Shown here piece after piece: positions 31,867 to 51,526 of a DNA stretch of 64,000 nucleotides. A model generated the notes under the pieces. That model saw only the letters and a program-made list of their open reading frames with translations. It was not told the origin of the DNA and did not search any database. Every line of letters starts with the position of its first letter. The stretch's first letter is position 1. A program made the position numbers and the translations under genes. Origin of the DNA: Thermoproteota archaeon (GTDB taxonomy: Archaea > Thermoproteota > Methanomethylicia > Methanomethylicales > Methanomethylicaceae); contig JAJHRG010000001.1 in assembly GCA_020832905.1 (NCBI GenBank), positions 296,617 through 360,616 of the forward strand. The letters run 5' to 3'.

Positions 31867-32465
31867 ATGAAAAAGAGTATTCTTTATTTAGGAATTATGG
31901 AATATCAAAGATTTTTAACTAAGAATTTTAAACCTTTTGATCCACTAGAATTAGCAAAAGAAACAGAAAAAATTGTAACAAGATGGAGTGATGAAGCTAA
32001 AGAGAGAAATATAGAGGTAATCAAAGTAGATCCTAAAAGTACATCTTCAAAATGTCCTATATGTGGTGATAAGCTAGTTGAGGACAGATACAGATTGCTG
32101 AGATGCAAGAAATGCAACTTCATAGGTGATAGAGATGTTATTGCAACAATAAATCTCTATTTTAAATACTCAAGATGTGGGGTCTATGGGGTGGTCCTGA
32201 ATGCCCCTAAGCCCGATGAAAACCGAGTGGAATGCAGGGGAATAAGAATGAGGCAATGACATCAAGTTATATGAATCCATGTAAGAGCTGAACCCCAAAA
32301 GAGGAAAGAGAAAATTTAATTCAAATGTTAGATGAAATTGATCCAGAAGCAAATTATTATAAAACTTTAGAAGAAGTAATAGATCCTTATTATACTACAA
32401 TAAAAAGATTAAGAGCATTTGAAGATGAAAAATTTGCAAAAATTCTCCTAAAGAAATTCTCATAA
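31867..32465 (+). pseudogene. Small host gene interrupted by a tnpB/right-end remnant (insert about 31980-32297)
   Basis: N-part MKKSILYLGIMEYQRFLTKNFKPFDPLELAKETEKIV, C-part KEERENLIQMLDEIDPEANYYKTLEEVIDPYYTTIKRLRAFEDEKFAKILLKKFS in another frame, TnpB C-terminus between. Confidence 0.65.
31980..32297 (+). mobile_element. IS200/IS605-type TnpB C-terminal fragment plus right-end/omegaRNA-like segment
   Basis: DEAKERNIEVIKVDPKSTSSKCPICGDKL...LRCKKCNFIGDRDVIATINL (Zn ribbon + RuvC-III); 3' 92 nt recur at 51435-51526. Confidence 0.8.
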
Positions 32466-32507
32466 ACTTCATAGTTTTATTATATCTTATTATTTTTGAA
32501 AAATTGA

Positions 32508-32582
32508 TGCTCCGGCCGGGATTTGAACCCGGGTCACTGGCTCGAGAGGCCAGTATACTTGACCGGACTATACTACCGGAGC
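32508..32582 (-). tRNA. tRNA-Glu(CTC)
   Basis: GCTCCGG...CCGGAGCA, CTGGC-CTCTCGA-GCCAG. Confidence 0.94.
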
Positions 32583-32640
32583 TAATATTATATAATCAGA
32601 TTCTCCTAAAATATTTTATATCTGAATTAAAAATAACATA

Positions 32641-34134
32641 TTGATGACAGAAGCAATTAGAGTTGAAGAAAGTAGAGTAAAAGTATTATATCCAATAGAA
32701 GAACCTTATGTATATGTAGTTATAAGTGAAGATCCAAATTCAGGTGAAATTATTTACAAAGTTATAGAACCAACATTAACTTCTGAAGATAAGATAATTT
32801 TAGAAAAGATAAAGAAAATATTTTTAGATGAATTAGATGTAGATTTAATGGAATTAAGTAAAGAAGAAGCTCATAAATTTTTAGAAAAAAGAATAAGAAA
32901 AATAGTAAAGGATTATAAAATTAAGATAGATGAAGGTCAATTAAATAAAATTTTATATTATTTGAAAAGAGATTTTTTAGGTTATGGTAAAATAGATGCA
33001 CTAATGAAGGATCATTATGTAGAAGATATTTCATGTGATGGTGTAAATGTACCTATTTACATTTGGCATAGAGAATATGAATCAATAAAAACAAATATTA
33101 TTTATGATAATGAAGAAGAGTTAAATAATTTTGTTGTAAGACTTGCATATCTTTGTGGAAAGCATATATCTGTTGCACAACCAATACTTGATGCATCTCT
33201 TCCAGATGGAAGTAGAGTAAATGCTACTTTTAGTACAGAAATTTCAAGAAGAGGTACAACTTTTACTATAAGAAAATTTAGATCAGATCCTATTACAATA
33301 ATTGATTTAATACAATTTGGTACAATTTCTGTAGAATTAGCAGCATATTTTTGGTTTGCTGTAGAGAATAAAGCATCAATATTAGTTGCAGGTGAAACAG
33401 CAGCTGGAAAAACTACTATGTTAAACTGTTTATCTATGTTCATAAGACCTGAATTAAAAATAATTACAATAGAGGAAACTCCTGAATTAAATCTTCCACA
33501 TGCTAACTGGATTCCCATGGTTACTAGAACAGGTTTTGGTATAAGTGCTTCTGAAATGAGATTATTTGATTTATTAAAAAATGCTATGAGACAAAGACCT
33601 GATTATATTATTGTTGGAGAAATAAGAGGAGCTGAAGCATATACATTATTTCAAGCATTAGCTACAGGTCATGGTGTACAAAGTACTATTCATGCTGAAT
33701 CTCCAGAAAAAGTTATTTCTAGACTTGAATCTCATCCAATGAATGTTCCAAAGTCAATGATTGAACTTCTTGATATTATTGTCGTTCAGGGAAGAGTAAA
33801 AATTGGTAATAGACCAGCAAGAAGAACATTATATGTTACAGAAATAAAAGGTTATAATCGTGAAAAAGATGAAATAGAATTACACTATTTTTCAAAATGG
33901 GATCCTACTACTGATAAACATGTTGTAGAAAAAGAAAGTATAGTATTAAAGAAAATAGCAGAAAGAAAAGGAATGACAATTGAAGATATAAGTACTAATC
34001 TAAGAAAAAAGACTATTATTCTTAATTGGATGTTAAAAAAAGGTATTAGACGCTATTCTGATATTGGAAGAATTCTAAGAGATTATTATGTTGATAGTGA
34101 AAGAGTTTTTGGACAAGCATTGGTGGAAAGCTAA
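32641..34134 (+). CDS. Type II/IV secretion system ATPase (archaeal type IV pilus/archaellum motor)
   Basis: VAGETAAGKTTMLNCLSMFI, TIEETPELNLPH, RPDYIIVGEIRGAEAYTLFQALATGHGVQSTIHAE. Confidence 0.93.
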   Translation: MMTEAIRVEESRVKVLYPIEEPYVYVVISEDPNSGEIIYKVIEPTLTSEDKIILEKIKKIFLDELDVDLMELSKEEAHKFLEKRIRKIVKDYKIKIDEGQLNKILYYLKRDFLGYGKIDALMKDHYVEDISCDGVNVPIYIWHREYESIKTNIIYDNEEELNNFVVRLAYLCGKHISVAQPILDASLPDGSRVNATFSTEISRRGTTFTIRKFRSDPITIIDLIQFGTISVELAAYFWFAVENKASILVAGETAAGKTTMLNCLSMFIRPELKIITIEETPELNLPHANWIPMVTRTGFGISASEMRLFDLLKNAMRQRPDYIIVGEIRGAEAYTLFQALATGHGVQSTIHAESPEKVISRLESHPMNVPKSMIELLDIIVVQGRVKIGNRPARRTLYVTEIKGYNREKDEIELHYFSKWDPTTDKHVVEKESIVLKKIAERKGMTIEDISTNLRKKTIILNWMLKKGIRRYSDIGRILRDYYVDSERVFGQALVES

Positions 34135-35012
34135 TGAAATTTTTTAAATTACCTAATTTATCATTTATTGCTTATAGAATTTTTGGAAGATTTGCTGATT
34201 TAATTATAGTTTATTTTGAGGATTTAGAAAGAGATATAAAAAGAGCTGGAATGAAAATTTCTCTTTATAGATATGTAAGCTTAATGTTTTTTCTTTGCTT
34301 AATTTCATTTTTTACTACTTTTATTATTTCACTACTAATACTTATTTCAAGAATGTATTTGTTTTATAGTATTATTGGATCAATAGGATTAGGAGTATTA
34401 GTTTCTGGAATAACATTTTGGATAATGTATTTACTACCAGGTATAATTGCTAATGAAAGAAAAAGAAAAATTGATGATACATTAGGTTTTGTAACTAATT
34501 ACATGGCAATTCTATCAACATCAGGTATTACTCCTGAAGCTATCTTTAAGAGTTTAGCTACAACTAATATAAACAAAGTAATAAAAGAAGAAATTAGTGA
34601 TATTGTAAGAAGAATGGAAATAGCAGGTGAAAGTTTTTATTCTGCAGTTAAAAGAAAAGCAGAAGAAACACCATCTAAATATTTTTCAGATTTATTAAAA
34701 GGAATACTAATGGTAAGTAGAACTGGAGGAAATTTAGAAAGATTCTTAAGATCTCAAGCAAGATATTTCATGAGAATTAAAAGAGCAATATTAAGAAAGG
34801 GATTAGATCAATTAGGTATTATTGCAGAAGTATATGTAACTGCAGGTATAGTGTTACCAATAGTAATGCTAATAATACTATCAGTAATGGCAATTCTTGG
34901 ATGGGCTGGAAATGTAGTAATTTGGTTATATCTTATCTCATTTGTATTAGTACCAATTATTTCAATAATAATAATAATTTTAATAGATACTATGATACCT
35001 AAAGGTGAATAA
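34134..35012 (+). CDS. Type II secretion F-domain membrane protein (FlaJ/TadC-like half)
   Basis: GFVTNYMAILSTSGITPEAIFKSL...SKYFSDLLKGILMVSRTGGNLERFL, C-terminal TMs. Confidence 0.85.
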   Translation: MKFFKLPNLSFIAYRIFGRFADLIIVYFEDLERDIKRAGMKISLYRYVSLMFFLCLISFFTTFIISLLILISRMYLFYSIIGSIGLGVLVSGITFWIMYLLPGIIANERKRKIDDTLGFVTNYMAILSTSGITPEAIFKSLATTNINKVIKEEISDIVRRMEIAGESFYSAVKRKAEETPSKYFSDLLKGILMVSRTGGNLERFLRSQARYFMRIKRAILRKGLDQLGIIAEVYVTAGIVLPIVMLIILSVMAILGWAGNVVIWLYLISFVLVPIISIIIIILIDTMIPKGE

Positions 35013-35844
35013 AATGCCATATGTAAAGAAAACTGAAAAATTAATTCTATATATTGTATCCATAGTGACTGGAATAATAATTGCAATAATAAGCTACTTT
35101 GTGTATTCAAGAGATGTAAGAATGGCTGATTACCTTATAGCTATTGCAATAATGATTACTTTATTTCCAGCTGGAACATTACATTATTTTGAATTTAGAT
35201 GGAAAAAAGCAATTGAGAGTAAAATACCAGATCTATTATATGATATTACTGAAGCTCAACTATCAGGTATGAGTTTTATTAGAGCTTTACAAACAGCAAC
35301 ATCTCATGATTATGGAATTGTATCAAAGGAATTAAGAAAAGTAGTAGCTCAAATAAGATTAGGATTAAGTTTAGAAGATGCTTTAAATAAATTTGCAGAA
35401 AGAACAGATTCAGAATTAGTAAGAAAAGTAAGTATAATAATTAGTGGAGTTAGTAAATATGGTGGTGATGTAACAAAAACAATAAGATCTTTAGCAGATT
35501 ACATAAAGTTATTATTAACATTAGATGAAGAGAGAAAAGCTTCAATGCGTATGTATCTTGGAATTGTTTATATTTCCTTCATAGTATTACTAGTAATCAT
35601 TGTTATTTTATTAAATCAATTCTTCTTTAATATTCTTAAGTTAGCAATAGGTACTACTTTGATTTTACCACAAATAGGTTATGAAGGATTTAGGAGAATA
35701 TTTTTCTATGCTACTATTGTTCAAGCAATTTGTTCTGGTTTAGTAACTGGAAAACTTGGAGAAGGTTCTATATTTGCAGGTTTAAAACATATAGTAATAA
35801 TGATGTTTCTTTCACTTATTGTATTTTCATTAATAGTATATTAA
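35005..35844 (+). CDS. Second type II secretion F-domain membrane protein
   Basis: IPDLLYDITEAQLSGMSFIRALQTA...ELVRKVSIIISGVSKYGGDVTKTIRSLA. Confidence 0.85.
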   Translation: MNKMPYVKKTEKLILYIVSIVTGIIIAIISYFVYSRDVRMADYLIAIAIMITLFPAGTLHYFEFRWKKAIESKIPDLLYDITEAQLSGMSFIRALQTATSHDYGIVSKELRKVVAQIRLGLSLEDALNKFAERTDSELVRKVSIIISGVSKYGGDVTKTIRSLADYIKLLLTLDEERKASMRMYLGIVYISFIVLLVIIVILLNQFFFNILKLAIGTTLILPQIGYEGFRRIFFYATIVQAICSGLVTGKLGEGSIFAGLKHIVIMMFLSLIVFSLIVY

Positions 35845-35851
35845 CAATTTT

Positions 35852-36817
35852 TTATGTTATAATAGATCTTAATGAAGTAATTATTTCTGATATTGTTTTT
35901 CCTTCTAAAACATTTATACCATATGATTCTGCAATTTTTCTTGCACTATCAGTTAATGCTGGTATAGCAATTATGATTAACTTTTTTACATTAACATCTA
36001 ATGCCTTAACAAAACTACTAAGTATAACAGTCTCACCTATTATCTCATTACCTATTACTATATCTATAGCAATTATTTCTCCCTTCTCATTAATTCCTAA
36101 TATATCAAATTTATGAGTAGCTCCAGATTTTCCAATTAATGTTCCTGGATAATTTACTGAAAATTTCTTTTCTTTTAATTCTTCAATAATTGGTTTAATT
36201 ATTAAATGTTGTCTAAAAAATTCTTCAAGAGCTAATTTATTTATAATAATTTTTGATATAGAAGAAATTACTAAGCCATGAGCTGTAACTTCTTTTTTAC
36301 AAATTCTACATCGATACATAATTTTTGGTAAATCAGTTTGTCTATAACAAACAAGACATCTATACCATACTCCTACTATTCTATAATCTTTTCCTTCAGT
36401 TATTAACTTACTACCACAACTTGGACATACTAATGTACCATTTTGAGATTTAAACTTAGAAATTGGTCCTATTACTCCATCTCTTATATGTTCTATTAAT
36501 AATTCTTTATAAATTTGAGTAGAATTACAAAATGGACAATAGAAGTAAACTCTTATATGTTCACTATTACAATAAGGACATCTTAATATTTGATCATAAT
36601 ATTCAGCTTTTCCTAATCCTAATGAAATTAATTTACTTATTAATTCAAAAACATGATCACGTGAAATTCCAATATCTATTATATCACTATATATATGTCC
36701 ATAATTAGGATCATATTCTGGTATAAGAACATCTTTTTTTGTTTTTATTAAATACTCAAATAATTTTACAAGTCTTTCATCACTTAATATAGAAGCATAA
36801 TAAGACAATAATTTCAC
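35852..36817 (-). CDS. Multi-zinc-ribbon protein with C-terminal REase-fold-like domain
   Basis: CPYCNSEHIRVYFYCPFC, CPSCG...CLVC, CRIC; THKFDILGINEKGEIIAIDIVIG. Confidence 0.6.
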   Translation of the reverse strand: MKLLSYYASILSDERLVKLFEYLIKTKKDVLIPEYDPNYGHIYSDIIDIGISRDHVFELISKLISLGLGKAEYYDQILRCPYCNSEHIRVYFYCPFCNSTQIYKELLIEHIRDGVIGPISKFKSQNGTLVCPSCGSKLITEGKDYRIVGVWYRCLVCYRQTDLPKIMYRCRICKKEVTAHGLVISSISKIIINKLALEEFFRQHLIIKPIIEELKEKKFSVNYPGTLIGKSGATHKFDILGINEKGEIIAIDIVIGNEIIGETVILSSFVKALDVNVKKLIIIAIPALTDSARKIAESYGINVLEGKTISEIITSLRSIIT

Positions 36818-38376
36818 CTCATATAATGTGTAAGTCTCATTTGTCCTTTCTTCATAATATTAATTTCTTTTAATTCTTGTGTAAATCCATAAATTTTTTC
36901 AACTTTCTTCATTACTCCTAATAATTTTCTTTTTTCATGTGTTCTCTTACTTATAATTACATATGTTTTTGCAATTTCCTTTTTATTAGATTTTCTTAAA
37001 ACTCTTCCAAATCTTTGTATCCATTTTTTTGGATTACTTGGTGGATCAAGCCAAATTTCTAAATCAGCTGATGGAATATCTAAACCTTCTTCTCCAATAC
37101 TTGTTGTAACTAATATTTTTGCATATTCTTTAAAATGAAGTAAAGCAGATGCTTGTTGTTCTAAATTCATTCCCTCTTTTCCTATGAGTATTGCTACATT
37201 TTCAATACCATATTCTTTTTGTAACATAACTCCTAATTGTTTTGCTGCTTCTACAGATTCTACAAAAATTATTGCTTTTTCAAATTTTTCCATATTTAAA
37301 ATTTCTTTAGCTACTGAAAATTTATGATTAAATGATTTTTTTATTAATTCTTTATATTTTTCATAAATTTCTTTCAATTCTCTTATTTTCCATATGCTAT
37401 AATTAATAACACTACTAGCACCATTCTCTACTATTCTCATTTTCATCATTTTTAATGCTAAAAAAGCAATACATAATGGATGTTCTTTACAATGCTCTTT
37501 TAAATGCTCACTACCATATTCTTCTTTTATTTTATTACGATATTCTTTAATTATATCTTCTAATTGCTTATATATTAAAAGAAGATCTTCTGGAATATCT
37601 ACACTTACTAGTATAAGTGATCTTTTTGGAATAAATGATTTAATTTCTGGATCATCTATGGATAGAACTTCTATACTTTCAAATATTCTCTTTAATTCTT
37701 CTAATCTTTTTTGTGAATGAAGTTGTGGTGTTGCACTTAATGCAAGTATCTTACATCCATATGCTTTTCCTACAAATAGTATAGAATATCCATCAGTTTC
37801 TCCTATATAGCTATGACATTCATCAGCTATAATTATATCAAATGGAAATTTAAAAAAATCAAGAATTTCTTTTAAGTTTAAGTTATTAGATTTTGCAAAA
37901 TCTATTTCTTCTTCATATTCAGATAGAAAATCATTATAAAATGTTTGAGGAGTTGTAACTACACAACCTGCATTCCATACTTTTAATTTTTTTCTTTTTT
38001 CAGGTGATATATTTCCAGATATAAAGAATGCATTTTCAATATTCAACATTTTTCTTAAAAATAATGTTTGTTGAACACCAAGAGGAACAGAAGGTGTAAG
38101 AAATAATATTCTTTTAGGCTCATTAAAAGTTTCTCTTAAAAGAAAAGCTCCAGCAATATATGTTTTACCAAGACCTGTTGGTAATCCTATAATAAGAGCA
38201 GTATCCCTTATTCTATCTAGAATTCTTTTTTGAAATGGATATAAATCATAATTTAACTTTTTAACACTTATTTTTTGTTCTTCATATATAACTCTTTTTG
38301 GAATTAAACTTAATGCTAAATTTCTAATTGAATATGAACTTTTACTAATAAATTCTAAATAATCTTGCCAACTCAC
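36814..38376 (-). CDS. Hef/FANCM-like superfamily 2 helicase (no ERCC4 nuclease domain)
   Basis: IGLPTGLGKTYIAGAFLL, IIADECHSYIG, LALSATPQ, TSIGEEGLDIPSADLEIWLDPPSNPKKWIQRFGRVLR. Confidence 0.85.
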   Translation of the reverse strand: MSWQDYLEFISKSSYSIRNLALSLIPKRVIYEEQKISVKKLNYDLYPFQKRILDRIRDTALIIGLPTGLGKTYIAGAFLLRETFNEPKRILFLTPSVPLGVQQTLFLRKMLNIENAFFISGNISPEKRKKLKVWNAGCVVTTPQTFYNDFLSEYEEEIDFAKSNNLNLKEILDFFKFPFDIIIADECHSYIGETDGYSILFVGKAYGCKILALSATPQLHSQKRLEELKRIFESIEVLSIDDPEIKSFIPKRSLILVSVDIPEDLLLIYKQLEDIIKEYRNKIKEEYGSEHLKEHCKEHPLCIAFLALKMMKMRIVENGASSVINYSIWKIRELKEIYEKYKELIKKSFNHKFSVAKEILNMEKFEKAIIFVESVEAAKQLGVMLQKEYGIENVAILIGKEGMNLEQQASALLHFKEYAKILVTTSIGEEGLDIPSADLEIWLDPPSNPKKWIQRFGRVLRKSNKKEIAKTYVIISKRTHEKRKLLGVMKKVEKIYGFTQELKEINIMKKGQMRLTHYMR

Positions 38377-38419
38377 AAATCTATAGTCTATAAATATATA
38401 ATATATATTTATTCTTTCT

Positions 38420-39154
38420 TTATTTTATTAAGCCTAATAATTTTAAAATTTCATTATAATTAGATTTTGTTTTTTTATATTCTCTTACTAATTCTCTTAA
38501 TTTTAAACTATCCCACTTCATGATTTTTTCTAATAATTCTGAATTACTAAAGAATAAGTAACCAATAATTGATGATAAATTACTACCTTTACTTTCAAGA
38601 CTTACTGTTTCAAAATCAATTATTACTGGTTTTTCTTCATTTTTTATTATTATATGCGTTTTTGGATTTGATAATTCCTTATGAAATATTCCTAATATAT
38701 CTAATTTATAACATTGTTCTAATAAGTCTTTTATGATCATACATACTTTTATAGGATTTTGTTCTTTTTTTAACCAATCAATTAAATATTCTCCTTCTAT
38801 ATATTCCATTACAATTACTTTATTTCTATAATCTATTAATCTAGGTCCTATTCCTTCTTTATTTACAATACTTAAAATTCTTCCTTCTCTTAATACTGAT
38901 TCTCTATTTGAATCTACTCTTAAAATTTTTAAAGCAACAATATTATTATCTTTTAATCCCTTTATAACTATACTAGTACAACCTTTTCCAATAACATTGA
39001 TTTTTCCTATATTTACCTTACCATTAGAAATTAATTCATTAATTCCCATTTCTCTTAATTCTTTTAGAACTTCATTATAGAACTCTTCCTTAAATACTGG
39101 ATATGATAATATTGTTTTTAATCTTTCATCATCTATTTTAATTATTTCAACCAT
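38420..39154 (-). CDS. RIO/Bud32-like serine/threonine protein kinase
   Basis: IGKGCTSIVIKGLKDNNIVALKILR, VMEYIEGEYLIDWL, IIDFETVSL. Confidence 0.75.
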   Translation of the reverse strand: MVEIIKIDDERLKTILSYPVFKEEFYNEVLKELREMGINELISNGKVNIGKINVIGKGCTSIVIKGLKDNNIVALKILRVDSNRESVLREGRILSIVNKEGIGPRLIDYRNKVIVMEYIEGEYLIDWLKKEQNPIKVCMIIKDLLEQCYKLDILGIFHKELSNPKTHIIIKNEEKPVIIDFETVSLESKGSNLSSIIGYLFFSNSELLEKIMKWDSLKLRELVREYKKTKSNYNEILKLLGLIK

Positions 39155-40518
39155 AAAGGTCTCTTCCTTATAAAACTAAAAACTTCATCTTCTATATCTT
39201 TACATTCTTTTAATATTTCTTCATCAATATAGACTTCAAATCCCTTATTTATTTCATTCATAATATCTTTACTTAATTTTAATTTCTTAATTTCATTTAT
39301 TAATAGATCTTTTATATCATCATATTTTCTTAATATTTCAACATAAATTCTATCATTTTTTATAAATGGTCCAGCTAATACTCTTTCATTATTAATATAT
39401 TTATCTAAGAATTTCTTTAAATCTTCATTATACCAAATTTTTGGTCCTTGATGAATTTTTCCTCTTCTTAATTTTCTTCTTTCTACTTCTATTAAAAATA
39501 TTATTTTATTCTCCTCATTACTCCATGCTTTATAATCTATTACTTCAAAATCATAATTTTCTATTAATTTTACAAATTTATTTAAGGTTTTTTTTATTTC
39601 ACCCCATAATATATCTGATGGAACTTTTGGACAACTTGTTTTTATCATTACTAATGATATTTCTCTTTTCTTCATTTCTTTTATAATATCATTTAAATTA
39701 ACATTTAATTTACTAGGAAAGAAAAATTCTATACTTGGTTTTTCTAAGAAGATTTTTGAAGCTATTATAAATGTAGAATATGATTGAAGAGAAACAGCAG
39801 CAGCTACATTCCTTCTCATATCAATAGGATCAATTACTATTAGTGGTGTATCAAAAATTTCTTCACATGAAATATCTTTATAGTAATTCATATAATCTAT
39901 TACTGTTTTTGGTTTCCATTTACTTGCATTTTCTATTACTCCTTTAAAATTTTTATAATATAATACAAGTAATTCACATAAATAACCAGAAAAACCTTCT
40001 ACTTTTAATTCAGCACCATAAACACCAATACCCTTCATAAATTGTTTTAATAATCTAACTTCATCTTTCATTTCTTCACTCATTTTACTTTTTATAAATT
40101 TTGTATGTAAAGGTGTTCTATCTACTGCAGTAAGTGGTCTTTCACCTTCTTTAATTTCAATTCCTGGAACTATATCTACTTCATATTCATCTATTTTCTT
40201 CTTTACATATGGATGTTCTGCATAAGCAATTTTCCAATTTTCTCCAGCACCATATTTTGCAATTTCAAGACCAATTTCTTTTGCTTTATTCTTATCAGTT
40301 CCATGAGGAAATAAAATAAATATATCAATATCTTTATCTGTAGAAATCCATGTATCTTTTGCAATAGATCCTTCTAATTCTACCTTAACATTAATTCCAA
40401 GAGATTTTGCTTTTTCTTCTATTCTACTTTTTATTTCTTCAAATATCTTCATTACTTTATTTTTTTCTTCATCTTTTGGTTTTATTCTTGATAATACTTC
40501 TTTTAATATTTCTTCCAT
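39142..40518 (-). CDS. cca: CCA-adding tRNA nucleotidyltransferase (archaeal class I)
   Basis: VELEGSIAKDTWISTDKDIDIFILFP, GFSGYLCELLVLYY. Confidence 0.95.
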   Translation of the reverse strand: MEEILKEVLSRIKPKDEEKNKVMKIFEEIKSRIEEKAKSLGINVKVELEGSIAKDTWISTDKDIDIFILFPHGTDKNKAKEIGLEIAKYGAGENWKIAYAEHPYVKKKIDEYEVDIVPGIEIKEGERPLTAVDRTPLHTKFIKSKMSEEMKDEVRLLKQFMKGIGVYGAELKVEGFSGYLCELLVLYYKNFKGVIENASKWKPKTVIDYMNYYKDISCEEIFDTPLIVIDPIDMRRNVAAAVSLQSYSTFIIASKIFLEKPSIEFFFPSKLNVNLNDIIKEMKKREISLVMIKTSCPKVPSDILWGEIKKTLNKFVKLIENYDFEVIDYKAWSNEENKIIFLIEVERRKLRRGKIHQGPKIWYNEDLKKFLDKYINNERVLAGPFIKNDRIYVEILRKYDDIKDLLINEIKKLKLSKDIMNEINKGFEVYIDEEILKECKDIEDEVFSFIRKRPLWLK

Positions 40519-41075
40519 TAATCAAAGAACACCTCTTTTAAATTATGATAAATAGGACCATGAGGTGTTAAAATGCTCTTTTTTAATACTATTTTATCTA
40601 TTATACACTTTCCAAAGAAATATCCTCTATACTCTTCAAAAATTTTCATTAATTTTTCTTTATTTCTAAAAGATTTTATTCTACCAATTGTTATATGTGG
40701 AACAAAATCTTCTTCTTTCTTAAATCCTAATGGTAAAAGCTTATTATCTAATTCCCTTTGTATTCTTATTATATTTTCTCTACCTTCTTTTACTCCTACC
40801 CATAAAACTCTTATATTCTTTTCATTTGGAAAAGCACCAATATCTTCTACACTTATTTCAAATTTTCTTTCTTTAATATTATCAAGTATATTAAAGATTT
40901 TTTCTAATAATCTTTTTTCAATATTTCCTAGAAATTTTAAAGTAATATGAAGATTTTCTCTTTCAACAAGCTTTATATCTATTTCATTTTTCTTAATTTC
41001 TTCTTCAATTTTCATAATTTCATCTTTTACATTTTCCCCTATTTCAAAAGCAATAAATGCTCTTATTACTTCCAT
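40518..41075 (-). CDS. thpR: RNA 2',3'-cyclic phosphodiesterase (2'-5' RNA ligase family)
   Basis: IRAFIAFEI, ENLHITLKFLG, FVPHITIGRIK. Confidence 0.93.
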   Translation of the reverse strand: MEVIRAFIAFEIGENVKDEIMKIEEEIKKNEIDIKLVERENLHITLKFLGNIEKRLLEKIFNILDNIKERKFEISVEDIGAFPNEKNIRVLWVGVKEGRENIIRIQRELDNKLLPLGFKKEEDFVPHITIGRIKSFRNKEKLMKIFEEYRGYFFGKCIIDKIVLKKSILTPHGPIYHNLKEVFFD

Positions 41076-41116
41076 ATAATCACCACATATATATTAGTGA
41101 AAATATTTTACTTTTC

Positions 41117-41674
41117 CATATGATTAAGTTTTTCTGTATTACTGGAATGCCAGGTGCAGGAAAATCAGTAGTAGCAGAAGCTGCAAAATCATTAGGCTTA
41201 AAGGTTATTGTTATGGGAGATATAATTAGAGAAGAAGCAAAAGCAAGAAATATAAAACAAACTCCAGAATCCTTAAGAGAACTTATGATCAAACTTCGTA
41301 ATGAAGAAGGACTAGATGTAATAGCTAAAAGATGCTTAAAGAAAATTTCAAATGAGAAAATTATTGTTATAGAAGGTGTGAGAAGTTTAGAAGAATTAGA
41401 ATATTTTAAGAAATTTGGATCTGTATGTTTAATAGCAGTTCACGCATCACCTAAAACTAGATTCAATAGACTTATTAAAAGAAATAGAGAAGATGATCCA
41501 AAGGATTTTAAAACTTTTGTAGAAAGAGATATGACAGAATTACGTATAGGTATAGGATCTGTTATTGCTTTAGCAGATAAAGTATTTGTAAATGAGGGTA
41601 CTATAGAAGAATTAATAGAAGCTGCAAAAGAATTTTTTAAGAGGGAAATAAATGAATGTAAAAGTAGTTGTTAA
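41117..41674 (+). CDS. Archaeal nucleoside kinase-like P-loop protein (UPF0200 type)
   Basis: MIKFFCITGMPGAGKSVVAEAAKSLGLKVIVMGDIIREEAK. Confidence 0.85.
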   Translation, partial: HMIKFFCITGMPGAGKSVVAEAAKSLGLKVIVMGDIIREEAKARNIKQTPESLRELMIKLRNEEGLDVIAKRCLKKISNEKIIVIEGVRSLEELEYFKKFGSVCLIAVHASPKTRFNRLIKRNREDDPKDFKTFVERDMTELRIGIGSVIALADKVFVNEGTIEELIEAAKEFFKREINECKSSC

Positions 41675-42122: not shown

Positions 42123-42838
42123 ATGAATTAATAACTACTGGAATTGATGTATTAGAAATAATGGATGATTGGAGAGATAGACTGACAAAGAAAAGAATTA
42201 ATTTACTTAACGATATAAGTAATTCTTTTGAAATAGAGTATACAGTACATTCTCCAATTCTTGATATTAATATTGCATCTTCTAATGATAGAATAAGAAA
42301 ATTAGCAATAAAAATTATTAAGAATTCAATGGAAAAAGCAGTAAATATTAATGCTAAGGTATATGTAATTCATCCTGGTTTAAAAACACCATTAGAAAAT
42401 TTTGTACCAAATATAAATAAAAATCTTAATATTTTATCATTAAAAGAAATATTAAATTATGGTGAAGAATTAGGAATTAAAGTAGCTATAGAGAATATGC
42501 CAGCAAGAACTCGTTGTTTTCTTCAAAATGTTAATGAATTTTTTGAATTAGAAGAAGAAGGAATTTCTCCATATATAGTATTAGATGTTGGACATGCAAA
42601 TACTGCATCACAACTTGAAATGTTCTTATCAAAACTTAATAATAAAATAATTCATGTACATCTTCATGATAATTATGGCATAGAAGATGAACATAGAGTA
42701 ATTGGTAATGGAAATATTAATTGGCAATTAGTAAAATCACATATTTCTTTTAATAAAATTTGTGGTATAGTTGAGAATAATACAATAGAAGAAGCAAAAA
42801 TTTCCTTTAAAAAAGCTCTTCAAATTTTTAAATCATAA
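42068..42838 (+). CDS. Sugar phosphate isomerase/epimerase (AP endonuclease 2-like TIM barrel)
   Basis: FGISTLCTIGKTFEKINEL, YVIHPG, IAIENMPAR, LDVGHANTA, HVHLHDNYG. Confidence 0.85.
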   Translation: MPFGISTLCTIGKTFEKINELITTGIDVLEIMDDWRDRLTKKRINLLNDISNSFEIEYTVHSPILDINIASSNDRIRKLAIKIIKNSMEKAVNINAKVYVIHPGLKTPLENFVPNINKNLNILSLKEILNYGEELGIKVAIENMPARTRCFLQNVNEFFELEEEGISPYIVLDVGHANTASQLEMFLSKLNNKIIHVHLHDNYGIEDEHRVIGNGNINWQLVKSHISFNKICGIVENNTIEEAKISFKKALQIFKS

Positions 42839-43725
42839 CTTTTAAAATCTTCAGCAATTTCTACATTTTCAAAAATTCTTTTTGCTTCCTCTTCAAGAAT
42901 TTTTACATCTCTATATCTACTACTTATATGAGTTAATACTAATTTTTTAACATTAGCTAATTTTGCAATTCTTGCAGCATCTTCTGCTGTAGAATGTTTT
43001 TCTTCATAAGCTCTATTAGAAAGATCTGAAGCAAATGTTGCCTCATGTATTAGTAAATCAGCTCCTTTTGCTATTTCTACTATTTTTTCACAATATCTTG
43101 TATCACCACTATATACTATCTTAATTCCTGGTTTTGGTTCTCCTAGAACTTCTTCAGGTTTTATTATTCTACCATTTTCTAGTTTTATACTATGACCTGA
43201 TTTTAATAAACCCCATAATGGTCCTTCTGGTATTCCTAATTCTCTTGCTTTTTCTGGTAAGAATTTTCCAAGACTTGCTCCTATGGTTATGCTATATGCA
43301 ATATTTTCTATAGAATGATCAGCTAAAACTCCTATTACTTTAATTTTTTTATCAGAGAAAATTTCTCCTTCTGTAATTTCATTTACTATTATGTCAAAAC
43401 TTGGCTTACAAATATCAAAATTTTTATAAATAAATTCCTTTATTCCTTTAGGTCCATAGATTTCAAGTGGATGTACTCTATTAAGTAAATTCATACTTTG
43501 AAGCATTCCAGGTATTCCTAATATATGATCTCCATGTAAGTGTGTAATAAATATCTTCATTTTCTTACATAAACTATATCCTGCTATCATCATTTGTCTT
43601 TGTGTTCCTTCTCCACAATCTAATAATATTATCTCACCATCAACACTTATTAATATTGATGGAAGATTTCTTTCAGGTGTTGGTATTCCACCAGCTGAAC
43701 CTAGTATAACTACCTTAATATTCAT
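42820..43725 (-). CDS. rnz: Ribonuclease Z
   Basis: LGSAGGIPTPERNLPS, LLDCGEGTQRQ, THLHGDHILGIPG. Confidence 0.96.
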   Translation of the reverse strand: MNIKVVILGSAGGIPTPERNLPSILISVDGEIILLDCGEGTQRQMMIAGYSLCKKMKIFITHLHGDHILGIPGMLQSMNLLNRVHPLEIYGPKGIKEFIYKNFDICKPSFDIIVNEITEGEIFSDKKIKVIGVLADHSIENIAYSITIGASLGKFLPEKARELGIPEGPLWGLLKSGHSIKLENGRIIKPEEVLGEPKPGIKIVYSGDTRYCEKIVEIAKGADLLIHEATFASDLSNRAYEEKHSTAEDAARIAKLANVKKLVLTHISSRYRDVKILEEEAKRIFENVEIAEDFKSYDLKI

Positions 43726-44741
43726 AAATTCTCCACAACTATTATTGATCTTGTAAGAGATTTATGTACTTTCATTATGTGTACTTCATGAACTTTATAA
43801 CCTTTTTTTATAGCTTCTTCTTCAATCTTAACTTCTTGAGGAGAAGCAATACACATAAATCTATTTTTTCTTAAAACTTCTTTTACTTCTTCTAAGAAAT
43901 TTGAAATTATTTCTTTAACACTTCTTCCTTTTGTTGATGTTCCTCTACCATAAGGAGGATCTGTTGATATTCCATCAACTTTATTTATTGGTAATTTCCT
44001 TGCATCTGCTAATATTAAATTTGCTTCTAATCCATAATATTTTAAGTTTTTATAGGCTCCTTTTACCATTTCTAAATCAATATCTAATCCATATGCATCT
44101 AATCCCATTAGTTCTGCTTCTATTAAAAATCCACCTGTACCACAGAAAGGATCAAGAAATTTTTCACCTCTTTTTATTCTACATAAGTTTACAAATACTC
44201 TAGAAAGTTTAGCATCTAAAGCTCCTGGATGGAAAAATACTCTTTTTCTTGGTCTTCTTTCTATAAATTCCTTTTTACTAATTCTAAAATTACATTCATA
44301 TATGAAAATTCCTCCATTAGTTATTATTCCCCTTATCCAAATTTCTGGATTTTCTAAATTTACCTTAGAATTAGTATGTCTTTTTATTATTCCACCTAAT
44401 TTCTTCTCTATTTCTACTGATGAAAATTCCTTCCAATAATTCTTAACTCTTTTTACTCTTACACCAAAACTTTTTCCTTCTATAAAACTCCAATCTATCT
44501 TATCACATTGATTAATTAAATCACTAATATTAGGAATATGAGTTATTAATCTTCCTCCTTCTACTATATATGCTCCTCTTCTCTTTAGTACATCAAATAC
44601 TTCTTTTCCTCCATCTATTATCATTAATTGATCAAATCTATTTACTTCACTAAATGATATTTCTTCACCTTTTAAAATAGCATTTACTTCTGAGTAAGGA
44701 AGAGAAGGATGTTCTCCTGAAAGTAATATAGCTATTAACAT
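43722..44741 (-). CDS. tRNA (guanine10-N2)-methyltransferase (THUMP + MTase)
   Basis: FFHPGALDAKLSRVFVNL, FLDPFCGTGGFLIEAELMG, STDPPYGRGTS. Confidence 0.9.
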   Translation of the reverse strand: MLIAILLSGEHPSLPYSEVNAILKGEEISFSEVNRFDQLMIIDGGKEVFDVLKRRGAYIVEGGRLITHIPNISDLINQCDKIDWSFIEGKSFGVRVKRVKNYWKEFSSVEIEKKLGGIIKRHTNSKVNLENPEIWIRGIITNGGIFIYECNFRISKKEFIERRPRKRVFFHPGALDAKLSRVFVNLCRIKRGEKFLDPFCGTGGFLIEAELMGLDAYGLDIDLEMVKGAYKNLKYYGLEANLILADARKLPINKVDGISTDPPYGRGTSTKGRSVKEIISNFLEEVKEVLRKNRFMCIASPQEVKIEEEAIKKGYKVHEVHIMKVHKSLTRSIIVVENL

Positions 44742-45601
44742 AATTCTCTTGCTATAAGAGGAGCAACTGTTATTTTACTAAATTCATTTTCTACAGTATC
44801 TGTAGCAATAATTTCATCAACACCTGCACTTTTAATTTTTTCTAAAGCATCTTTAACTAAAAGTGCATGAGTACATGTTGCAATTACTCTTCTTGCTCCT
44901 TTTTCCTTTACAATTTTTGCAGTAATTGCTATAGTCCCACCTGTACTTATTACATCATCTACTATAATTACATCTCTATTTTTGAAATCAATATCTACTT
45001 CTTCTATCTTTATAGCACCACTAATTCTATCTCTATATTTTTCAAAATATCCATATTCACATTTCATAATTTCTCCTAGTTTTTTTGCTCTTTCTAATGC
45101 ACCTTTATCTGGAGCTAGTACATATGGATTATTAAAATTAATATTCTTTAAATAATCTGCTATTACTTCTATAGCATTTAAATTTCTTGTTTTTATCTTA
45201 ATTGTATTTAAAGAATATTCTTTATGAATATCAACAGTAATAAATTCATCAGCTCCAATTTTTTCTATTAACTTAAGTATTGTATTTATACTTATAGCTT
45301 CTCCTTCTCTAAATCTTCTATCTTGTCTAGCATAAGCAATGTATGGAACTACAACCTTAATTTTCTTTGCACCAAGATCTTTTAAATTATCAATAAGTAA
45401 AAATAATTCAATAATTCTTTTATCTTGATTTGGATATGTTGTATTAACAATTACAACATCATCTTCTATATTATCTACAATTCGCACATAAGATTCACCA
45501 TCTGGAAATATCTTATACTCTACATTAGCAATTTTTGCATTAATAATTTGTGCTAATCTTTTACTTAAATTAATTGAAGCAACACCTGGTACTATAATCA
45601 T
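44735..45601 (-). CDS. prs: Ribose-phosphate pyrophosphokinase
   Basis: FPDGESYVRI, YIAYARQDRRFREGEAIS, DVIIVDDVISTGGTI. Confidence 0.97.
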   Translation of the reverse strand: MIIVPGVASINLSKRLAQIINAKIANVEYKIFPDGESYVRIVDNIEDDVVIVNTTYPNQDKRIIELFLLIDNLKDLGAKKIKVVVPYIAYARQDRRFREGEAISINTILKLIEKIGADEFITVDIHKEYSLNTIKIKTRNLNAIEVIADYLKNINFNNPYVLAPDKGALERAKKLGEIMKCEYGYFEKYRDRISGAIKIEEVDIDFKNRDVIIVDDVISTGGTIAITAKIVKEKGARRVIATCTHALLVKDALEKIKSAGVDEIIATDTVENEFSKITVAPLIARELC

Positions 45602-45658
45602 AAGATCACCATTTTAAAAATAAATACTTAATTGAGAAATAAATTTTAGGGATTAAAT

Positions 45659-46660
45659 TTGGAGGCAATGTTGTATAGTAAATTGAATTCTAATAAAGTA
45701 AAGTGTAATCTTTGTAATTTTAGATGTGTTATAGCTGATGGAAAAAGAGGTATTTGTGGTTTAAGAGAAAATAGAAATGGTATTTTGTATACTCTTGTAT
45801 ATGGAAAAGTAATTTCCTATGCTATAGATCCAATAGAAAAGAAACCTTTATTTCATTTCTATCCTGGTAGTACTACATTTTCTATTGCTACTATTGGTTG
45901 TAATTTTAGATGTATATTTTGTGATAATTGGACTATAAGTCAGGATAGAGAAGTAAAAGGTGAAGAATTGTTACCAGAAGAAATAGTATACATGGCAAAA
46001 AGATATGGATGTAAATGTATTAGTTATACATATACTGAACCAACAATATTTTTTGAATATGCTTATGATATAGCAAGACTTGCTCATAAAGAAGGAATAT
46101 TTAATACATTTGTAACTAATGGCTACATGACACCTGAAGCAATAGATTTAATTAATGGATATTTAGATGCTGCAACAGTAGATTTTAAAGGAAGTGGTGA
46201 TCCTGATTTTTATAAAAAATTCTGTAAAGTACCTGATGTGGAGCCTATTTTTCAATCTTTATTAGAAATGAAGAAAAAAGGAATTTTTATTGAAATAACT
46301 GATTTAATTGTAACCGGTGGAGGAGATTCAAAAGAAGCTTTTAAGAAATTTATTAAGAAAATAGTTGATATTCTTGGAGATTCTGTACCACTACATATAC
46401 TTAGATTCTTTCCAAGTTATATGTATTTAGATGTCACATCAACACCTATTAAATTATTGGAAGAACTTTACAATATAGCAAAGGATTATGGATTAAAATA
46501 TGTTTATTTAGGTAATGTTCCTGGTCATAAGTATGAGCATACTTACTGTCCTAATTGTAATAATATAGTAATAAAGAGAATTGGATTTGAGGTTATTGAT
46601 ATTAAGCTTAAGGGTAAGAATTGTATATATTGTAATAATGAGATAAACATAAGAATATAA
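45659..46660 (+). CDS. Radical SAM protein, AmmeMemoRadiSam-type (AmrS-like)
   Basis: GICGLRENRNG...DPIEKKPLFHFYPGSTTFSIATIGCNFRCIFCDNWTISQ. Confidence 0.9.
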   Translation: MEAMLYSKLNSNKVKCNLCNFRCVIADGKRGICGLRENRNGILYTLVYGKVISYAIDPIEKKPLFHFYPGSTTFSIATIGCNFRCIFCDNWTISQDREVKGEELLPEEIVYMAKRYGCKCISYTYTEPTIFFEYAYDIARLAHKEGIFNTFVTNGYMTPEAIDLINGYLDAATVDFKGSGDPDFYKKFCKVPDVEPIFQSLLEMKKKGIFIEITDLIVTGGGDSKEAFKKFIKKIVDILGDSVPLHILRFFPSYMYLDVTSTPIKLLEELYNIAKDYGLKYVYLGNVPGHKYEHTYCPNCNNIVIKRIGFEVIDIKLKGKNCIYCNNEINIRI

Positions 46661-46671
46661 AGGTGATTATT

Positions 46672-47777
46672 ATGTGGTACTTCATTCGTCCAGATGCTGT
46701 ATCTGCATTAGAAGATCCAAAAGTAATAGAAGCTCTTCCTAGATATGTAGATGTTGTTAAAAATAAGAAATTAGCAAAATTTAGAATATGTAGATTAATT
46801 CCAGTAGAAATTTCAGGAGATGAATCAACAGAAGAACTTTGGAATATTCATAAAAAACTTATTAATGAATACATTAAACTTGAAAAAGAATTAGATGAAG
46901 GAAAACCTATACCTTTAGAAACTCCTAAATTTTCTCTTCTTCATCTTAAAGCTACTATAGCACAGAGAATAATGAGATCATGTATATTATGTGAACGTAG
47001 ATGTATGAAAAATAGGGAAAAAGGAGAACTTGGATATTGTAAAGTAGGAAAGGAAATGTTAGTATCATCGTATTTCGATCATATGGGGGAGGAACCTGAA
47101 ATTGTTCCCAGCTTTACGGTATACGACTTTTAGTCGGCCGAATTAGCCTGGGATGCAATTTCAGGTGCCTCCACTGTCAAAATTGGACTATAAGTCAACA
47201 ATTTGAAAAAGGAGAATACTATACAGAAAAGGAATTAGCATTACTGATAGATGATGCACGTAGAAGAGGATGTAGAAATCAGAATTGGGTTGGTGGAGAT
47301 CCTATACCTCATATACCATTTTGGCTAAGAGTTTTACTTTATGAAAAGGAAAATATGCCTGTTTTCTTTAATACTAATGGATATTTAACTATTGAAGCTA
47401 TGGAACTATTAAGAGGTGTTGTAGATATTTTCAAAATAGATTTTAAATATGGTAATAATAAATGTGCAGAAAGAATTTCTGATGTAAAAAATTATATGGA
47501 AGTAATTACAAGAAATTTAAAACTTGCAAAAGAATATGGAGAACTATTAATAAGAATTCTTGTTTTACCAAATCATTTAGATTGTTGCTTATCTAAGATA
47601 TTAGAATTTATATCAAAAGAACTTGGGAAAAATACAAGAGTTAATTTAATGGATCAGTATACTCCACATTGGAGAGCAAAAGAAGTACCAGAAATTACAA
47701 GACGATTAAATGCACATGAATGGAGAAGAGCTATTGAAATGGTAAAAACTTATGGTCTTACCAATGTTATATCATAA
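46672..47777 (+). pseudogene. Radical SAM protein (PflA/PflX-like), frameshifted near 47110-47140
   Basis: Frame A CILCERRCMKN...HMGEEPEIVPSFTVYDF* then frame B LGCNFRCLHCQNWTISQQFEKGEYYTEKELALLIDDARRRGCRNQNWVGGDPIPHIPFWLRV...; both halves coding-like. Confidence 0.8.
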
Positions 47778-47876
47778 AATGAAGGAATATGGAATTAGAA
47801 TTTCAATATATTCGCTTTCTTTATTAGCTCAAAGGTTTACAGGAAGCTTAGGAGAAAAAGCAATAATTTTATGAAC

Positions 47877-48028
47877 CTAGTAGAAAGTATGACCACAATC
47901 CCTACAAATATATCTTCTCTTTTTCCCTTTCATCGTCGGTACAAATCCAAATCTATTCACTCTAGTAGAGCCACAATATTTGCATACTTTTTTCTCTTCT
48001 TTTACTTTCTTTATATAACTGAAAACCT
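47877..48028 (-). pseudogene. Zinc-ribbon N-terminal fragment of an insertion-sequence transposase
   Basis: KKVCKYCGSTRVNRFGFVPTMKGKKRRYICRDCGHTFY*, no downstream catalytic domain. Confidence 0.5.
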
Positions 48029-49333
48029 CGCCTTTTAAGGCGGGGATGGCAAAAAGGGTTTTTAAGTCTCCTCTCTCCCAAGAGTCTCGGGACGTTCCCT
48101 TGCAGAAGGACGTTCGGGTATGCGTGATCGGAAAGGTTTTCAAGCCTAACAAACGGAAGGTCTTAGCTCTGAACAAGACCCTCGACGAATACTTCAGGCT
48201 TGTGAAGTGGTACTTGAGCTTTAACTTCACATCGAAGACCTTCCTCCACAAGAACTGCTACGAAAAAGCCAAGGAGCTCTTCAACCTTAACACTGCCTTA
48301 ATCCAGACAGCGAGGGACAGGGCTGTCGAGATATTGAAGAGCTTCGAAAAGACCAAGAAAGAAGATAGCGTTCTAAGGCTTAAAAGGATATCCATACGCT
48401 TCGACAAGAGATGTTACAAGTTCTCCAAGACGATGAACGTCCTCACGCCGTACTGGCTGACGCTGAGCTTGAACAGGAAAGAGAGAGTAAGCCTACCGAT
48501 AGTCTTCGGGGAAAGGCAGAGGCAGAGGATCGAGGAGGCCCTCAGAGGGGAATGGCAGTTCACGATGGTCGAAATGGTCAAACGTGATGGACAGTGGTAC
48601 GCCCACTTCATCCTAGAGAAGACCGTTGAAGTCCCCGACGAGCCCGAGACCGTGATAGCGATAGACAGGGGCGAGCACAACCTAGCCGATGCAGTAGCGA
48701 TATCGAAGAGCAACCCCAATAAGCCCATGAAGGGGCAGTTCTGGAGGGGGCAGAGATCAAGAGGATAAGGGGGCTGTACAACCACATCAGGAGGAGGCTT
48801 CAGGAGAAGAAGCTACTGAAGAAGGTCAAGGAGCTCAAAGGAAAGGAGAGACGCAAGGTAAACCAGCAGTTGCACATCATAGCCAACCAGATAGTCGCCT
48901 ACGCTAAACAGTTCCCAAAGCCAGTAATAGTCATGGAGGATTTAATGGACATCAGAGGCAATTTCCACAAGTCCAAGGAATTGAACAGAAGGTTTCACTC
49001 TCTGCCGTTCAGAAAGCTTCAAACCTACATTGAATACAAGGCACTCCTCGAGGGAATAGATGTGGTGTACCTCGAAAAGAAGCTTGTCAAGAACACTTCG
49101 AGGACTTGCCACAGGTGCGGGCACGTTGCCCAAGTCAAAGGAAGAGAGTTCAGATGCCCAAGATGTGGGCTAATCTACAATAGGGATTTGAACGTATGTG
49201 TGAATATAGCCCATGCCTTAACGAGAGGCATGGGATGGGGGGCCGTGAGCCCCCCGAACCAGCAGATGAGGCTGGAGGCGCGAAGCCCCAGCTGAACGCT
49301 GGAAGCCTCGCCCTTTAGGGCGGGGCAGCTCAC
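48015..49333 (+). mobile_element. IS200/IS605-type element carrying tnpB only
   Basis: Abrupt GC-rich island; hairpins CCTCGCCTTTTAAGGCGGGG (left) and CCTCGCCCTTTAGGGCGGGG (right). Confidence 0.75.
48046..49295 (+). pseudogene. tnpB: TnpB RNA-guided nuclease, single frameshift at the G5 run 48746-48750
   Basis: RuvC-I AIDRGEHNLADAVAIS, RuvC-II VIVMEDLMDIRG, Zn ribbon CHRCG...CPRCG, RuvC-III YNRDLNVCVNIAHAL; +1 G restores AEIKRIRGLYNHIRRRLQEKKLLKKVKELKG between ORFs. Confidence 0.88.
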
Positions 49334-50385
49334 TTTCTAAAGAAAATTGGTCTTATAGAAAATATTATTACTAAAAATCCACAAACTAAAACTCCAAGTC
49401 CAGATACAAAAAGAAGAGGTATTAAACTTGCTTTTGGATTTATTATAATTGTACTTATCTCAATTACTATTTGTCTTATAAATAATAAAGCAACTAATAT
49501 TACAATTTCATGCCATATTTTTTGTGATTCCTCTAAGTACTTTACTATAAGTCTTCCTGTAAAGTATATTGCAATTCCTATAATAAATAAATCAATAATA
49601 TTTGATAATGCTAATCCTACAAATGATTGTAGATTTTCTAATGATGTTTCCATTAATGCTATATTTATTCCCCTATATATTGCAATTGATGAAATTATAA
49701 TGCCTATTATTGAAGTAATAAGTCTTATTGGTGATTCCTTCCATGCGTCTCTTATTATTTTATCAATATTAAATCCCTTTACTATTAAGATTATACTAAC
49801 TATAGTTCCTAAAGATATTGCTAAATAGTTTATTAAATTAAGAAAATATAATATTGTTATTGTAAAGAGAATTAATCCAGGTATTCCTAAGAAGGTTTTT
49901 GAATATTCAGGTTCAGTAAGTTTTTTTAAATATCTATAAAATAATACATAAGTTTCTTCTACACTTTTTTCTTGTTGAACAAAAACTCTCTTTACTGATA
50001 TAATTGGAACTTTAGATTGTATTATTGGTAGTGCTTGTTCATCAGTAACTCCATCACTTATAAATATTACTCCATCTGCTTTAAAATTTTTAAGAACTTC
50101 TTCTAATTCTGACAATATTTTTATATCAGATTTATATCCTCCCTCAGGTAAACCTGTTATAATTGCAACTTCACATTTATAATTTTCCTTAATTAATTCA
50201 TCATATACTTTTATTGCTTCAAATATAGAATTTACATCAGAATCTTCTGGATTTTTAAGAGCAAATGAAATTGCAACAGATAGAACTTTTTCTCTACCTA
50301 TGATTGGTGTAGAAAGTCCTAGTATTCTACCTATATCATTATCCTTATCTACATTTAGTACTAGTATATTTTTTTCCATTTTCAA
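49330..50385 (-). CDS. DUF373 family membrane protein
   Basis: NILVLNVDKDNDIGRILGLSTPIIGREK, GYKSDIKILSELEEVL, multiple TMs; stop codon abuts the mobile element. Confidence 0.8.
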   Translation of the reverse strand: MKMEKNILVLNVDKDNDIGRILGLSTPIIGREKVLSVAISFALKNPEDSDVNSIFEAIKVYDELIKENYKCEVAIITGLPEGGYKSDIKILSELEEVLKNFKADGVIFISDGVTDEQALPIIQSKVPIISVKRVFVQQEKSVEETYVLFYRYLKKLTEPEYSKTFLGIPGLILFTITILYFLNLINYLAISLGTIVSIILIVKGFNIDKIIRDAWKESPIRLITSIIGIIISSIAIYRGINIALMETSLENLQSFVGLALSNIIDLFIIGIAIYFTGRLIVKYLEESQKIWHEIVILVALLFIRQIVIEISTIIINPKASLIPLLFVSGLGVLVCGFLVIIFSIRPIFFRK

Positions 50386-50433
50386 TAGTAAATATGTTTA
50401 TAAACTTAAAACTATTGTGGAAAAATTTAAATA

Positions 50434-51294
50434 TTACTTTTCTATAGAGAGTAAAGCCATAAATTCATCAAATGTTAATTTTTCTCCATTTTTAATTTTC
50501 TCTTCAGCTATTTTTGCTAATTCCATTCTTTTTCTTAATATTTTCTTTGTTTCTTCTGCTATTACTTCAACTCTTTTTTCTAATATTTCTTCTTTAATTT
50601 TATTATACTTAAGATTATTTTCATGATATTCTTTCTTAAGATTACTTATTTCTGTTTTTAATAAAGATATTTTCTCCTTGATTTTTACTAATTCTGCTTT
50701 AATTGATTTTAAACTTTCAATAGACTTTATCATGGATTCATGATATTTTCTAGATTCTTGTGCTAAAGATAAAATTTCATTATGAATGTTATTTGCTTTT
50801 TCTTTTAATTCATTAAGAGATAATTCATATGAATTTATTTTTTCATTTATTTCTCTAATTTGTTTGTATATTAATAATTTTCTTTCTATTTCACTTCTTC
50901 TTTGAAGTAATCTTTTTTCTTCTTCAAGAGAAAGTGGATTTGTTTGTTGTTTCCAATCTATATATTTAATTTGATTTATTAGGTCCTCTTCTTCTTCTTT
51001 AACTAAAGAAGATAACTTCCTCTTTTCTAATCTTAATTCCTTTATTTTTCCTAATATCTCTTTACACTTATCATTAAGTTCTTTTCTTATTTTCTTCTTT
51101 TCAGCTATTTTTGTATTTATATCATTTCTTAAATTCTTGAAGTTTTCTATTTCCTTCTTTATTTCATTTACTTTTTCTTGTATTTCCTTCTTTTTTTCTT
51201 TAAGCTGATTTAATTCTGAATTTTTTTCTTTTATTTCTTCACTTAATGATTTTATTTTCTTAATTAGTAACGATATTTCTTCCATTAATATCAC
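50434..51294 (-). CDS. Archaeal coiled-coil protein
   Basis: Long Lys/Glu heptad-rich helices. Confidence 0.7.
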   Translation of the reverse strand: MILMEEISLLIKKIKSLSEEIKEKNSELNQLKEKKKEIQEKVNEIKKEIENFKNLRNDINTKIAEKKKIRKELNDKCKEILGKIKELRLEKRKLSSLVKEEEEDLINQIKYIDWKQQTNPLSLEEEKRLLQRRSEIERKLLIYKQIREINEKINSYELSLNELKEKANNIHNEILSLAQESRKYHESMIKSIESLKSIKAELVKIKEKISLLKTEISNLKKEYHENNLKYNKIKEEILEKRVEVIAEETKKILRKRMELAKIAEEKIKNGEKLTFDEFMALLSIEK

Positions 51295-51434
51295 TCTTGG
51301 TTGGAATTTTTGTCTTCAGGACAGAGAGCTGTTTTAATAAAAAGCTTAAAAGCTTATAAACATCTTGGTACAACTTACACATGAAGTTGAGTAGTATGAG
51401 CTTAGTAAGTAATGAGAACTTGTCTCCTTGATAC

Positions 51435-51526
51435 TGGGGTTCAGCTTTTATATAGGTTTGTATAACTTGATGTCATTGCCTCATTCTTATTCCCCTGTAT
51501 TCCACTCGGTTTTCATCGGGCTTAGG
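51435..51526 (-). repeat. Solo right-end/omegaRNA-like remnant, second copy of 32206-32297
   Basis: Minus strand CCTAAGCCCGATGAAAACCGAGTGGAATACAGGGGAATAAGAATGAGGCAATGACATCAAG...AGCTGAACCCCA; 92 nt, 7 mismatches, no gaps. Confidence 0.9.

Follow-up and report, generated by a model that had tools for sequence, protein, structure and literature searches.

Two dispersed copies of a 92-nt repeat in the genome of a Thermoproteota archaeon raise the question of whether this locus carries omegaRNA scaffolds that still serve a TnpB nuclease, or what is left of the transposon to which such scaffolds belong. The window (the whole analyzed stretch of 64,000 nt, positions 296,617 to 360,616 of contig JAJHRG010000001.1, assembly GCA_020832905.1, hereafter G000) holds one copy on each strand, which we call A and B, and a sequence-only reading had taken both for omegaRNA scaffolds, each followed by its own guide. 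In the ISDra2 system the corresponding reRNA is about 150 nt long and uses about 16 nt of flanking sequence as guide, and its TAM coincides with the target motif (PMC8612924). At a probability of about 0.9, we conclude that A and B are relics of one IS1341-type (tnpB-only) IS200/IS605 family, with A breaking a host gene and B nested in another element, X. This conclusion is drawn from homology to elements in relatives, element boundaries, empty sites, a frameshift shared by the two copies, and a search of the assembly in which no cognate TnpB was detected.

The repeat and its boundaries

Between 32206-32297 (+) and 51435-51526 (-) the alignment is gapless for 92 nt, and its seven differences (85/92 identical) are transitions only, just as had been described. 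The pair matches by BLAST with an E-value of 3.9e-33 at 92% identity, and no other matches that strong occur in the assembly. A covariance model search of the genome brought the number of right ends to three in total, the third belonging to a decayed copy on contig C20 whose junction of left and right ends is similar to that of copy B. In a tree of right ends A and B are sisters (support 86/87).

The proposed right-end boundary is sharp, but it lies one base earlier than had been placed: the family right end stops exactly at GAACCCC, and thus after the CCCC at 32296 in copy A and 51436 in copy B. The base following CCCC may be A, T, C or G among copies, and the terminal A common to both window copies is therefore assigned to the flanks; in copy A it is part of a host codon. 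The left limit of the 92-nt match is not an element boundary but the junction of an internal deletion in copy B. The core had been described as the last tnpB codons, a stop and about 50 nt of non-coding sequence. It does unite a tnpB 3' end with a right end, but the stop (32257-32259) is a frameshift product, arising from a 1-nt deletion common to A and B (AAAACC-GAGT), and in some intact relatives (e.g. G001 C65, ending in NPSGMQGNKNEAMRNIKLYEPM and a stop codon) the frame continues to about 15 nt before the right-end terminus, so that most of the supposedly non-coding part is coding there.

The transposon family in relatives

A lack of further copies or of full-length elements in relatives would have spoken against the sequence-only reading; many copies were found there, and full-length elements with them. 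The right end is present in 7 of the 101 genomes searched (the archaeon's own and relatives), with eight copies in the sister genome G001, and full-length tnpB genes with a matching right end occur at L071 and L141-L145. The copies found in relatives, some intact and some decayed, allowed the family to be reconstructed. Its intact elements reside in a Nezhaarchaeota MAG (L071/L140), which over tnpB is identical to a G026 contig, and in other archaeal MAGs (L141-L145), with TnpBs 60-78% identical. They share one plan: GCC, then a palindrome-bearing left end, a divergent ORF of 47 aa, a tnpB gene of about 413-427 codons, a right-end palindrome, and GAGCTGAACCCC, directly after which the element ends. 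GCC stands at the left boundary of 17/17 left ends, a count made up of 16 left ends plus the G001_C1 copy with its boundary placed 3 nt further left. Family elements insert 3' of GCC and leave no target duplication.

The assignment to the IS1341 type follows from three features. A TnpB with TNB/zinc-ribbon domain is encoded by intact relatives and, in part, by copy A (Cas12f1-like_TNB, E = 2.3e-15; NCBIfam guided_TnpB, E = 2.6e-11), the gene being lost in copy B. Subterminal palindromes occur without terminal inverted repeats, at the right end of nearly all copies and also at left ends. The fixed GCC motif is combined with an absence of target duplication, seen in the precise junctions of copy B in element X and of the right end of copy A in its host gene.

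The divergent 47-aa ORF lies upstream of tnpB in every intact element inspected (L071, L141-L145), with the consensus MARxE..CSVIKYRRGDYVLYPLG..KEKIKHLHGKEVYxLIIAEE. It has no match in Pfam or NCBIfam, and its product may be an accessory protein of the family TnpB.

Copy A interrupts a radical-SAM gene

Copy A (31983-32296, +) consists of a tnpB remnant that has lost its 5' part, together with the right end of the element. By nucleotide homology to intact relatives it corresponds to about -314 to 0 relative to the right-end terminus; its left breakpoint lies at about 31983-31995. On either side is part of a disrupted radical-SAM-family gene. The N-terminal remnant (31897-31986, +) retains about 30 codons (MEYQRFLTKNFKPFDPLELAKETEKIVTR) and shares 73-76% identity across 37 aa with the N-termini of two intact homologs, L026 and L027, the former matching PF04055 Radical_SAM with an E-value of 4.5e-10. 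The C-terminal remnant (32297-32465, +) retains 55 codons beginning with KEERENLIQMLDEIDPE (KEERENLIQM...LLKKFS and a stop) and is 68% identical to L026 residues 229-284. Intact homologs are about 284 aa long, and host residues of about 31-227, roughly 200 in all, are missing at the copy A locus.

The junction position reads ATGCCx/AAG GAG GAG (MP/KEER) in the host homologs, and the insertion point of copy A, ATGCC/A, therefore fits the GCC target of the family. Comparison with this junction also identifies the 3' flank of the right end (32297-32316, +), nominally the guide AAAAGAGGAAAGAGAAAATT, as host gene sequence. The N-part of the host gene is fused in frame to the C-part of tnpB, yielding a chimeric ORF at 31867-32259 (+) that ends at the frameshift stop. 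Copy A would have inserted at ATGCC/A of the radical-SAM gene, after which the 5' part of the element and some 200 host codons would have been lost, an order of insertion and deletion that we infer from one genome.

Copy B is a nested miniature

Copy B had been described as nearly a solo right end; it proved to retain a left end that carries the last part of the small ORF, to have lost its core, and to be nested in element X. This 218-bp miniature of left and right ends (51436-51653, -) is defined by left-end repeats in the sister genome, by the 92-nt core as its right end, and by a precise empty site in element X. Its left end (51544-51653) recurs at G001 C6 and C48 and borders immediately on the right end, of which the final 91 nt remain (51436-51526, -), too few to include the 5' arm of the stem predicted for the scaffold. 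Of tnpB only the last 30 or so codons survived the deletion, which also took half of the small ORF and the promoter region that separated the two genes. About 22 last codons of the divergent ORF, ending in EYQDEVKPLHGKRVHVIIIAKN and a stop, remain in the left end (51535-51600, +) and match the ORFs of 47 aa in L144 and in elements of the L143 type. Directly left of the left end stands the insertion target and presumed TAM, GCC (51654-51656, -). The copy entered element X without target duplication; the inner site, TATCGCC/AGTATC, compares with GTCGTC/AGCATC at L044, with 18/25 bases equal and differences that are all transitions. The genes on both sides of the locus lie on copy B's own strand.

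Element X flanks copy B in two parts. The first (51295-51435, +) contains a promoter-like AAAAGCTTATAAAC at 51348-51361, is 82% alike to G001:C64:297-443 and is related to L054 and L055; the second, beyond the inner miniature (51654-51727, +), is homologous to about positions 190-250 of L044. The outer parts together match one contiguous sequence of the sister genome (C64, L044), which has related copies at C46 and C57. The composite of X and B (51295-51727, 433 bp) is absent from the sister genome, where the flanking genes adjoin at G001:C19:10595-10762, and the whole 433 bp is therefore an insertion relative to that genome. In its own genome X lacks about 31 bp between CATCA direct repeats beside the insertion point of copy B. 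That the guide should be sought 3' of the right end is sound as a general idea, but what had been read as the guide of copy B is sequence of the first part of X.

Copies of X in the sister genome (L044, L054, L055) are GC-rich and have subterminal hairpins and a promoter resembling a TATA box, and X may represent a second family of TnpB-derived miniatures, with TCAC as target; a search for its full-length parent found none. We considered X as a known structured RNA gene and rejected this, as neither L044 nor the B locus has an Rfam match above the gathering threshold and folding is no better than that of shuffles; a mobile element fits better because copies lie at different sites and resemble insertion sequence ends. 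In the history that we propose, X itself was inserted between two co-directional genes, and copy B lost its core, leaving its left and right ends precisely inside the miniature X.

Whether the copies are live

No intact gene for the cognate TnpB was found in the archaeon's own assembly, where only residues 313-402 are left, in copy A. With 21 contigs and 92% completeness, the assembly could lack an intact cognate gene through this incompleteness and because repeats often lie at contig ends. In the sister genome the cognate tnpB copies do lie there (an N-terminal half on C1; C-terminal ends on C17, C62 and C65), and as contigs end inside these copies, full-length elements are probably retained in G001. 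G000 holds other TnpBs and one Y1 TnpA. The latter, the only Y1 TnpA of the genome, adjoins a 429-aa TnpB of a different family (G000:C15:14489-16785) and is the likely source of transposase in trans; mobilization of family elements would then depend on such a TnpA.

A separate TnpB element lies in the window at 48018-49329 (+). Its left hairpin is AACCTCGCCTTTTAAGGCGGGG and its right end GGAAGCCTCGCCCTTTAGGGCGGGGCAGC; roughly one frameshift splits its tnpB into ORFs of 240 aa and 141 aa, and the element bears a weak match to Rfam sot0042, a haloarchaeal IS1341 RNA, at 49204-49326.

Stand-alone omegaRNA loci are known in other OMEGA systems, and with this precedent A and B could be live omegaRNA genes, each with its own guide and used in trans by a TnpB. 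Copy A retains both arms of the predicted closing stem described below, and read-through transcription of copy B is possible given the same-strand genes on either side. Against this, copy B lacks the first 40 or so nt of the scaffold along with the promoter region, the folding energies of A and B alone are no better than those of shuffled sequence (z about +1), and there is the missing cognate TnpB, because of which both copies are most likely dead relics; live genes are thus very improbable. Still less credible is a protein-level function for copy A, in which the chimeric ORF would encode a domesticated fusion protein. Its junction is in frame and the TNB zinc-ribbon motif is intact, yet an in-frame junction arises by chance one time in three, the frame terminates at the very frameshift that copy B shares, and the host domain is down to about 30 of 284 residues with the radical-SAM core gone. 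We judge the ORF to be a pseudogene product.

The sequence-only reading saw in a compensatory change between A and B a hint of RNA structure. The change falls in the right-end palindrome ATATG-AATC-CATGT (32269-32282, +), and over 25 copies there is indeed covariation against a tree-based null, although a modest one (P = 0.006 for the score, 0.05 for pairing). Subterminal palindromes of IS200/IS605 elements are the single-stranded substrate of TnpA, and a similar palindrome stands at the left end, ahead of the genes and beyond the reach of any omegaRNA, so that DNA recognition by TnpA would explain the palindrome without RNA. The left- and right-end regions further match as inverted copies (28 bp, 89%). 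A reading of the compensatory changes as DNA-level only therefore deserves weight, though we consider it somewhat the less probable one, since a longer-range pairing is also preserved. The consensus fold of the last 130 nt or so is closed by AUGUGGG/YYYAYRU, with 97% of cells paired in 21 copies versus 15-67% in slid versions. In copy A the arms are AUGUGGG (32175-32181, +) and UCCAUGU (32276-32282, +), the second being also the 3' half of the palindrome. In this 3' arm 17 of 18 inferred changes, two palindrome-loop positions included, preserve pairing in a G-U-compatible manner, and transitions are over-represented (Fisher P = 0.018). All changes are one-sided, a consequence of coding for the RCG motif in the 5' arm; with one-sided changes shuffles are uninformative, and sliding and counts of substitution types served as controls. 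Together these patterns suggest a closing stem of a scaffold, as modeled from the family alignment; in single-sequence folding of copy A it is not predicted as the optimum.

The reading of A and B as omegaRNA scaffolds is partly supported. The pairing signal is present in the family, and copy A keeps the whole candidate region of about 130 nt, its segment 32169-32296 (+) aligning with a unit kept in miniatures of relatives (below), but copy B lacks the 5' third, including the 5' stem arm, and for neither was an intact partner found in the assembly. In an intact member the end of the transcript would, by analogy with ISDra2, form the omegaRNA and the next 16-20 nt or so the guide, a role that the window copies would have lost.

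Miniatures in relatives

Miniatures of another form occur in G001 (C7, C11, C47), G026 (C11), an Ignisphaera MAG (L143) and a Thermoproteota MAG (L142). In these the first 25-30 or so tnpB codons are joined to a right-end segment starting at -133 to -135 in the coordinates of intact copies, and the left-end region is kept as well. The nuclease-less loci L111, L112, L109, L105, L143 and L142 have each kept a hairpin in the first codons of tnpB and about 134 nt of right end, and several are fused in frame. The 5' hairpin (such as AAGAGCC...GGCTCTT) persists where the frame is broken, and the 3' part starts just outside the predicted closing stem. Nearest kin are mostly full-length copies from the same genome. 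A single clade of miniatures was rejected (p-AU = 0.0004, for a group defined after the tree was seen), and as they are not monophyletic the form arose more than once.

Such retained segments would fit selection for an omegaRNA-only element. It is conceivable, if on balance unlikely, that the miniatures are omegaRNA-only parasites depending in trans on the TnpB (and TnpA) encoded by full-length copies, in which case copy B would be such a lineage's dead end, shortened further still. Alternatively, the junctions may stem from deletion hot spots at very short homologies. One relic right end of the family, at L111 (G001:C47:20184-20312, minus strand), lies in the apparent intron of a split tRNA gene, after TTGCC and within a self-complementary intron stem.

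Comparison with known systems

In haloarchaea, sot RNAs (sense overlapping transcripts; Rfam RF02656 and related) overlap the 3' ends of tnpB genes in IS1341 elements. The candidate scaffold would, like them, be an RNA from an archaeal tnpB 3' end, and an Rfam search with A and B gave no match at E ≤ 1. For the window the outcome is mostly deflating, in that A and B are unremarkable remnants of a decaying tnpB-only transposon, one of them clearly nested, with precedents in PATEs (palindrome-associated transposable elements; PMC3119063) and ISDra2 (PMC8612924). As in ISDra2 TnpB, the tnpB 3' end overlaps the right end, palindromes are subterminal, and a short fixed motif stands 5' of the insertion with no target duplication (PMC8612924). 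Unlike ISDra2, the family targets GCC rather than TTGAT, has no internal tnpA, and carries the conserved divergent 47-aa ORF, and its window copies are broken; its candidate scaffold measures about 130 nt versus the roughly 150 nt of the ISDra2 reRNA, which includes the guide of about 16 nt (PMC8612924). What is gained is a defined archaeal IS1341-type family, with its GCC target, exact right end, divergent ORF and candidate scaffold.

PATEs of Haloquadratum derive from IS605-type elements by loss of the core; their ends are fused, and insertions of one element within another occur (PMC3119063). Copy B resembles them in its deleted core, fused ends, near-terminal palindromes and nesting of one mobile element in another; it has no complete ORF, a decayed relative on C20, and ends that are both fully homologous to intact elements. 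It differs in its archaeal lineage and in junction repeats that are very short at most, versus 19-22 bp in PATEs (PMC3119063). Whereas PATEs consist of ends only (PMC3119063), several of the relatives' miniatures retain the left-end region and the whole scaffold. This repeated keeping of a segment of about 134 nt, outside the window, is the sole novel lead of the analysis, and it offers a testable case of non-coding elements that possibly borrow a TnpB nuclease in trans.
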